DNA from: Bacteroidota bacterium
GTDB lineage: Bacteria; Bacteroidota; Bacteroidia; NS11-12g; UBA955
Direction of reading: 5' to 3'
DNA length: 56,701 bases
NCBI GenBank assembly: GCA_018333525.1
Contig: JAGXTF010000060.1
Coordinates: 1-56,701 of the forward strand
Shown piece after piece: positions 24,045-25,348 of this stretch. Made by a program: the position numbers and the translations under genes. Each line of letters begins with the position of its first letter. Within the stretch, counting starts at the first letter, position 1. The notes under the pieces were generated by a model. It was not told the DNA's origin, did no database searches, and saw only the letters and a list, made by a program, of their open reading frames with translations.

Positions 24045-24069
24045 CTATCGAAAGTTATACTTTCGATAG
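24045..24069. repeat. Perfect 10-bp inverted repeat upstream of the Cys-rich protein gene
   Basis: CTATCGAAAG, five-base spacer TTATA, CTTTCGATAG. It lies about 82 bp upstream of the start codon of the minus-strand gene at 22974-23963. It may be an operator or an isolated hairpin. Confidence 0.75.
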
Positions 24070-24203: not shown

Positions 24204-24829
24204 ATACGACCCCTTCAGGGTCGTATAACTATATCGATTGTTTTTTAAGAACATATAATCCCTTCGGGATTAAGAAATAGGAACCATTTACAAACATTTC
24301 TACCATAGAAACGAATCCGAAGGATTCGAATATTCTTAATAAGTCTACACGTCGATAATGGCGACCTTGATGGGGTCGTATATCGATTTCGCTTGTTTTT
24401 TAAGAACATATAATCCCTTCGGGATTAAGAAATAGGAATCATATACAAACGCTATAGCAATGGAAAAGATACCAAAGGATTCGGAAATACTTAAAACAAA
24501 AAAAGAATTGGAAGGCATCCAATGAGATTAAAAATGTGGTGTGTGTTTTTTTGTAAACTTAAAAAATTTTTGGTATTAGAATATTGTAAACATTAGCAAA
24601 CTTCTAAACCTTAAGTGTGAATCTATAGGATTCGATCACACATAGAAATAAAGAGAAAGAAAGCTACAACAGCAGCCCAATTGCGTAGTGTTTTTAAAAT
24701 GAACATAAAATCCTAGCAGGATAATGATCAAATTACCATTGGCAATCATCTATACTCTGGAAACGAATCCGAAGGATTCGAATGTTCTTAAAACTCTACA
24801 CTGCAAAGCTGGCGACCCTGAAGGGGTCG
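24204..24829. repeat. Hairpin array (REP-like) downstream of the Y1 transposase gene
   Basis: This gene-free stretch (23964-24850) contains at least nine short hairpins with a CCTTCRGG-type centre and different arms. A type (GACCC/GGGTC): 24204-24226, 24362-24378, 24813-24829. B type (TAATCCC/GGGATTA): 24256-24272, 24411-24427. C type (CGAATCC/GGATTCG): 24312-24328, a decayed copy near 24467-24483, and 24764-24780. Others: an imperfect one at 24615-24641 and ATCCT/AGGAT at 24710-24722. Loops are three to six bases, mostly TTC or GAA. No gene is visible in the stretch. Confidence 0.88.
24239..24438. repeat. 155-bp direct duplication inside the hairpin array
   Basis: A 45-base sequence at 24239-24283, starting TGTTTTTTAAGAAC and spanning hairpin B, recurs without mismatch at 24394-24438. 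Hairpins A and C are displaced by about the same 155 bp, so a whole A-B-C module was duplicated in tandem. Confidence 0.85.
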
Positions 24830-24850
24830 TATAAATTCGATTATACATTT

Positions 24851-25348
24851 TTATATGGTATCAGAGTTTTCAGAGTCAAACCACTCAAATAAATACGCAT
24901 CCTTATATTCAATTTCAAAATCATTAAGAAATTCCACAAATTCCTGTCGAAACGATCTCTTTTCGTGATGCTTTTTTTGATCCCAGATATACCTGCACAC
25001 AGATTCAATTGAAGCATTACTGTAAGAAAATGCTCCAAAACCTTCCTGCCAGTTGAACTGATATTTTGAAAATTTCTTTTCCTTAATAAACTCAGTTGAT
25101 GATTTTTTAACCTCCCGCACCAAATCAGACAAGCAGCATGATGGCCTTATTCCAATAAAAATATGAATGTGGTCTGGCATACCATTTATTGCCAAAACTT
25201 TCTGCCCTTTGTTTTTAATGATTCCTGTAATATACCGATACAATTCCTCCTCCCACCATGGCTGAATCAAATATTGTCTGTTGCGAACCGCAAATACTAC
25301 CTGAATATTGATTTGTGAAAATGTTCCTGCCATAACATTATTTTTCAC
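24851..25348 (-). CDS. REP-associated tyrosine (Y1, HUH) transposase, IS200-like
   Basis: A 165-residue single-domain transposase of the IS200/IS605 TnpA superfamily. The HUH motif is HIH in PDHIHIFIG. The probable nucleophilic Tyr is in the SVCRYIWDQKKHH helix, and a second Tyr-rich segment (GFGAFSYS) precedes it. The C-terminus ends FLNDFEIEYKDAYLFEW, a form found in many stand-alone RAYT proteins. There is no accompanying tnpB. A hairpin of the array starts 22 bp downstream of the stop. Such enzymes cleave single-stranded hairpin DNA through a 5'-phosphotyrosine link, so the array is its likely substrate. An ATG inside at 25333 (MAGTFSQ) is an alternative start. Confidence 0.85.
   Translation of the reverse strand: MKNNVMAGTFSQINIQVVFAVRNRQYLIQPWWEEELYRYITGIIKNKGQKVLAINGMPDHIHIFIGIRPSCCLSDLVREVKKSSTEFIKEKKFSKYQFNWQEGFGAFSYSNASIESVCRYIWDQKKHHEKRSFRQEFVEFLNDFEIEYKDAYLFEWFDSENSDTI

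Follow-up and report, generated by a model that had tools for sequence, protein, structure and literature searches.

The window, that is, the whole analysed stretch of 56,701 nucleotides, contained a gene for a Y1 (HUH) transposase on the minus strand (24851-25333, 160 aa, the stop codon being counted in the coordinates), which was followed by an array of short hairpins at 24204-24829. The longest form of the open reading frame (24851-25348, minus strand) began with a GTG; the conserved start was the ATG at 25333. The encoded protein, named P0001 here, matched Pfam Y1_Tnp at 4.4e-25 and had the features that define the Y1/HUH superfamily. Namely, it possessed an HUH motif (H55-I-H57) and a single catalytic tyrosine (Y115) in the Y1_Tnp domain, the latter within the motif YIWDQKKHH that also included Q119. 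As the preliminary description of this DNA had stated, the gene stood alone. No tnpB-like open reading frame was adjacent to it, and its neighbours in the window were a 329-aa open reading frame and a second, GMP synthase-like one, which from its translation we take to be GMP synthase. In a structure search, the predicted fold of P0001 resembled the ISDra2 and IS608 transposases as well as the REP-bound enzyme 4er8. The model used for this search was built from 4 sequences (pLDDT 80), and a model from 34 sequences had the same structural elements (pLDDT 85).

Six perfect hairpins (stem of at least 6, loop of 3-5, at least 3 G/C per arm) were found in 24204-24829; in 1000 dinucleotide shuffles, the average was 0.094 and no shuffle had more than 2. 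Four imperfect copies brought the number to about ten, so that the earlier count of at least nine was fair. The array started with hairpin A1 (24204-24226, plus strand; ATACGACCC-CTTCA-GGGTCGTAT). Then came hairpin B1 (24256-24272, plus strand; TAATCCC-TTC-GGGATTA) with the tag TTAAGAACAT in front of it (24245-24254, plus strand), and hairpin C1 (24312-24328, minus strand; CGAATCC-TTC-GGATTCG) with the tag TAAGAATAT (24330-24338, read on the minus strand). They were followed by the imperfect hairpin A' with CGACC arms (24362-24378, minus strand) and by hairpin B2 (24411-24427, plus strand) behind another TTAAGAACAT tag (24400-24409, plus strand). Two decayed copies of hairpin C lay on the minus strand, one recognised by repeat comparison at about 24467-24483 and the other at 24619-24633 (GAATC-TATAG-GATTC), and a decayed copy of hairpin B was located on the plus strand at 24710-24722 (ATCCT-AGC-AGGAT). 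Hairpin C2 (24764-24780, minus strand), its tag TAAGAACAT (24782-24790, read on the minus strand) and hairpin A3 (24813-24829, minus strand) completed the array. The distance from A3 to the Y1 stop was 21 nt, not 22 bp as initially given.

The three independent arm families that had been proposed for these hairpins were reduced to two kinds of module, the tagged X/Z and the untagged Y. B and C turned out to be one tagged module in opposite orientations, with the tag TTAAGAACAT and the TTC loop in common and with different stems; in the own genome, both sides differed at 4 of the 7 stem pairs. On the gene strand, Y was hairpin A (CGACCC), Z was hairpin C (CGAATCC-TTC-GGATTCG) and X was hairpin B (TAATCCC-GAA-GGGATTA), the tag TTAAGAACAT preceded Z, and its complement ATGTTCTTAA came after X. 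The order on this strand was Y-Z-(decayed)-X-Y-Z-X-Y, with ordered X-Y-Z triads in which the hairpins were about 50 bp apart, and the array was a partly decayed tandem of A-B-C units of about 155 bp. For the complete triad at 24312-24427 (minus strand; B2, A' and C1 on the gene strand), the predicted fold had X and Z as small hairpins flanking a longer stem of paired tags that ended in Y. The TTC loop of B and C was not a general rule; other species had TCC, GCT, GAC and other loops. Just outside the array, an 11-bp perfect hairpin at 24045-24069 (CTATCGAAAGT-TAT-ACTTTCGATAG) was unlike the array modules.

The enzyme had previously been called a RAYT, and this name had to be given up. P0001 scored 29 bits with the NCBIfam model REP_Tyr_transpos (cut-off 80) and 67.7 with transpos_IS200 (cut-off 55), and its Y-motif was the Y---Q--HH of class 1 rather than the Y---NP of RAYT. 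Identity as a class 2 TnpA(REP) was rejected on these grounds. Subclass 1.2 of TnpA(Y1) has been defined by DH[IV]H, WQ and Y---Q--HH, a length of about 148 aa, low copy number and occurrence in Bacteroidetes or Cyanobacteria (Quentin et al. 2018, PMC6006769). By its motifs (DHIH, WQ and YIWDQKKHH), P0001 fits this subclass of class 1, and our comparison was confined to non-cyanobacterial members. The likeness also included the length (160 aa in P0001 and, more generally, about 150-160 aa including a C-terminal extension), the few copies with diverged paralogues and the origin from Bacteroidetes. Quentin et al. (2018, PMC6006769), who surveyed the Y1 family, listed the IS200-like subclass 1.2 as lacking both IS properties and REPs, and its role was thus left undecided. 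In contrast, here arrays adjoined most of one clade of these enzymes, and short tagged hairpins adjoined the genes of its sister clade.

P0001 shared with IS200/IS605 elements (IS608, ISDra2; subclass 1.1) the HUH/Y1 fold and motifs, the match to the NCBIfam IS200 model and, presumably, hairpin substrates. However, there were no identical mobile copies, since the best P0001 paralogue was 49% identical and three species from the same genus had the locus in a syntenic position. Moreover, no tnpB adjoined the gene, which was under purifying selection at this syntenic locus, and many hairpin copies were located away from it. Atypical hairpins that flank the gene and recur at other places in the genome are also known from class 3 Y1 enzymes and from subclass 2.6 (RAYT group 5) of Bacteroidetes, but these enzymes are set apart by their motifs, NHVH for the former and NH[LIV]H and YIH[QN]NP for the latter (PMC6006769).

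The own genome (G000) encoded five diverged paralogues of the P0001 family, the window copy included, with 30-49% identity to P0001. Pattern searches, which were the source of all genome-wide hairpin counts, revealed nine separate intergenic arrays of like build, and three of them adjoined Y1 paralogues. The array of the window copy had CGACCC/TAATCCC/CGAATCC modules, the one by the copy on contig C101 consisted of about eleven 49-bp units with CGACCC-CTACT, and the one by the copy on C33 had CAACCCC/GAATCCC and appeared to go on at the start of C89. The remaining arrays had no Y1 gene within the stretches examined and had mixed modules. The end of C31 and the start of C117 (L040, L041) were the same DNA over several kb, one array included, and therefore the copy counts for the own genome were slightly inflated. 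Arrays at L040, L042, L043 and L044 also contained the palindromes CAATGCTGTTCCAGCATTG and CCCCGGGTTTCAACCCGGGG, located 1-10 nt ahead of CGACCC hairpins whose loop was CTACA, and these palindromes were possibly part of the element of paralogue P0002. The more distant paralogue P0005 (L051:3988-4509; G000:C118, about 379.5-380.0 kb) had a near-identical hairpin, CCCAGAACTTMAGTTCTGGG, on each side. The two flanking copies were the only ones in the own genome, and thus P0005 looked like a single-copy IS200-like unit. Paralogue P0003 was located between the short tagged hairpins GCTCCGTAGGAGC and GCACCGTAGGTGC (L050, about 4147 and 4995; G000:C118:286644 and 287496), which were one compensated base pair apart. 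Neither the P0003 nor the P0005 hairpins were dispersed in the own genome, where each had two copies flanking its own gene.

A scan of named genomes identified 80 loci of P0001 relatives, and many of the compared genomes were MAGs. Hairpins with a CC-loop-GG centre occurred at 4.0/kb in the first 250 bp downstream of the gene, compared with 0-0.2/kb beyond 2 kb. When the loci were placed on a tree, at least two such hairpins were present within 700 bp at 49 of 55 loci of the clade of P0001 (the array clade) versus 3 of 29 loci of the sister clade (Fisher 7e-13, not a literal p-value because the relatedness of the tree rows was ignored). The exceptions in the array clade were L121 and L059 with no array, L085 and L141 with a single hairpin, and L082 and L083 at a contig edge. 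This clade covered many Bacteroidota families. Spacing of 44-58 bp was observed for 113 of 200 neighbouring hairpins, the X and Z loops were often complementary (GAA/TTC, GGA/TCC), and the usual tag in most of the other species was CTATANACAT, as compared with TTAAGAACAT in the own genome. Sister-clade loci had a shorter type of hairpin, many with a ATATNATTATAG tail.

The catalytic residues were conserved in the 55 array-clade proteins (H55 in 55/55, H57 in 54/55, Y115 in 55/55), and the Q residue was likewise present in nearly all of them. With dN/dS of 0.045-0.13 for close pairs of Y1 genes, the array-clade enzyme was, as judged from its sequences, under purifying selection. The pairing of the hairpin arms was analysed at sites picked by the tag alone, which avoided the circular covariation of hairpins picked as palindromes. 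A 7-bp hairpin with at most 1 mismatch followed the tag at 65 of 83 such sites, with about 40 different stems, and followed 4.5% of random positions in the same regions. Thus, base pairing was kept while the sequence drifted.

We searched the own genome and 56 relatives for the palindrome CGACYC-N5-GRGTCG with a reversed control. It was present in all 10 genomes with an array-clade enzyme (25, 19, 9, 6, 4, 4, 4, 4, 2 and 1 copies) and in 5 of 47 genomes without it, where the 1 or 2 copies equalled the level of the reversed control. Genus-mates without the enzyme, namely one g8 species and two g16 species, had zero copies. Thus, the hairpins were not equally abundant without the enzyme, and the REP-like association between the two, as put forward in the preliminary description, was upheld. 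Eight further genomes whose enzyme locus bore an array were searched for the tag together with a hairpin. Seven of them had 4-14 copies, Cytophaga aurantiaca, for instance, having 14 distributed over six contigs, and the reversed control had 0. Carboxylicivirga was missed by this search because its 4-nt loops fell outside the pattern. The same combination was absent from six genomes sampled via loci outside the array clade or via L121, an array-clade gene without hairpins. In Candidatus Parvibacillus calidus, tandem tagged hairpins with 387-bp spacing were located about 400 kb from the Y1 gene (G062:C1:3311989-3314069).

The Y1 locus was syntenic in three g8 species, and the adjoining array differed in length among them. 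At two intergenic orthologous sites, the element was present in one species and absent or truncated in close relatives. When exact empty sites were sought that would show the clean junction of a single element, the outcome was only presence or absence with messy edges. Viral contigs searched for the Y1 protein yielded five distant matches only (26-32% identity), and therefore the enzyme was not mainly a phage feature.

Taken together, the hairpins are an ordered, tagged and repeated element that adjoins most of one enzyme clade, is scattered in the same genomes and does not exceed background in those searched relatives that lack the enzyme. It was most likely that the enzyme and the hairpins belonged to a single system similar to the REP/RAYT systems known from other bacteria, because close relatives across Bacteroidota adjoined similar, genome-dispersed arrays. 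Our preferred explanation, with a probability of about 0.75, was that an IS200-like Y1 transposase of class 1 (subclass 1.2-type) had been domesticated and had a REP/BIME-like hairpin family of its own.

Alternatively, the hairpins could be RNA elements, such as terminators, attenuators or 3' mRNA stabilisers, of the Y1 and other genes, with the enzyme not acting on them. Many arrays were indeed directly downstream of the gene, at a median of 47 bp past the stop, and the hairpins could fold as RNA too. However, no T-run followed them on either strand, so that the terminator version was rejected, and an Rfam scan of the locus gave no match. Moreover, the hairpins occurred in both orientations, within one array as well as at other intergenic sites, arrays were located upstream of the Y1 gene at several loci, and genomes without the enzyme lacked the hairpins. 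We therefore regarded RNA elements as an unlikely explanation.

It was similarly improbable that the arrays were passive tandem satellites, grown by slippage and recombination, with the enzyme gene merely sitting among them. The constant period of the tandem units within an array, such as 173 bp in L186 and 387 bp in G062, would be expected from such growth, but solitary elements at many scattered sites, the co-occurrence with one enzyme clade across Bacteroidota and the conserved design of tag plus hairpin with drifting stems would not. Dyad symmetry and covarying arms would also suit a dimeric regulator or nucleoid protein bound to double-stranded DNA. We considered such duplex sites very improbable, since the stem sequence was free to vary while the stem length, the CC-loop-GG centre and the tag were constant, unlike the sites of a dimer that reads sequence. 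Additionally, the adjacent conserved protein belonged to a superfamily that binds single-stranded hairpins, and the sister clade of the enzyme had a different type of hairpin.

If the domesticated transposase acted on its own hairpin family, the process might begin once an intergenic region is exposed as a single strand, as at the replication fork, for instance. The enzyme would then recognise the CC-loop-GG hairpin together with the tag (TTAAGAACAT in this genome and CTATANACAT in the majority of the other species) and cut beside the hairpin through a 5'-phosphotyrosine link of Tyr115 on single-stranded DNA. Joining of the cut ends elsewhere by strand transfer would disperse the triads and alter the length of the array beside the own gene. 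We consider such cutting and strand transfer likely by analogy with IS608 and with TnpA(REP), which cuts single-stranded REP hairpins in vitro (PMC8266576). Which enzyme serves which hairpin was inferred from proximity, because several genomes carried more than one Y1 gene. A further proposal, to which we gave slightly less than even odds, was that subclass 1.2-type enzymes run a separately evolved REP-like system. Its ordered three-hairpin unit (X, inverted tags closing on an apex Y, and Z) would have drifting stems and a fixed CC-loop-GG centre, the enzyme would recognise shape, centre and tag, not the stem sequence, and several enzyme-hairpin pairs per genome would share arrays.

Similar to the REP/BIME/REPIN elements of class 2 TnpA(REP)/RAYT enzymes (E. 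coli, Stenotrophomonas, Pseudomonas), the hairpins were dispersed intergenic palindromes, often in inverted pairs or clusters, with a short conserved tag at one foot. A low-copy, conserved Y1 gene was likewise flanked by palindromes that were also dispersed in the genome, and the REP of S. maltophilia also has an 8-bp stem with a 3-nt loop (PMC8266576). On the other hand, the enzyme belonged to class 1 (Y---Q--HH, not Y---NP) and failed the REP_Tyr model, and the 5' foot of the hairpins lacked GTAG, having instead the tag CTATANACAT or TTAAGAACAT at about 1 nt from the hairpin. The ordered three-hairpin units, the spacing of about 50 bp and the widely drifting stems were further differences, and gammaproteobacterial REPs have hundreds of copies, compared with 1-25 here. 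We found no description of these arrays in open-licence papers, and an earlier account in a subscription journal is possible. RepRanger counts palindromes in three Bacteroidota genomes with no mention of RAYTs (PMC12306157), and a 2013 survey of REPs reported repeats with a CGTC tag in Bacteroidetes that had no dedicated transposase (PMC3733652), whereas the tags described here were not CGTC.

If the arrays are the cognate repeats of these enzymes, domestication of the REP type was not confined to class 2 but arose in class 1 too. Bacteroidota would then offer numerous natural pairs of enzyme and hairpin, differing in their stems and useful for understanding how Y1 enzymes read hairpins, and the intergenic hairpin arrays in many Bacteroidota genomes would be explained. 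Finally, genes of the sister clade and related ones, again with short tagged hairpins, were also present in MAGs or genomes that carried the labels Chloroflexota, Planctomycetota (Brocadia) and Thermodesulfobacteriota (Desulfonema) (L106, L108, L117, L136), which suggested either horizontal transfer or misbinned contigs.
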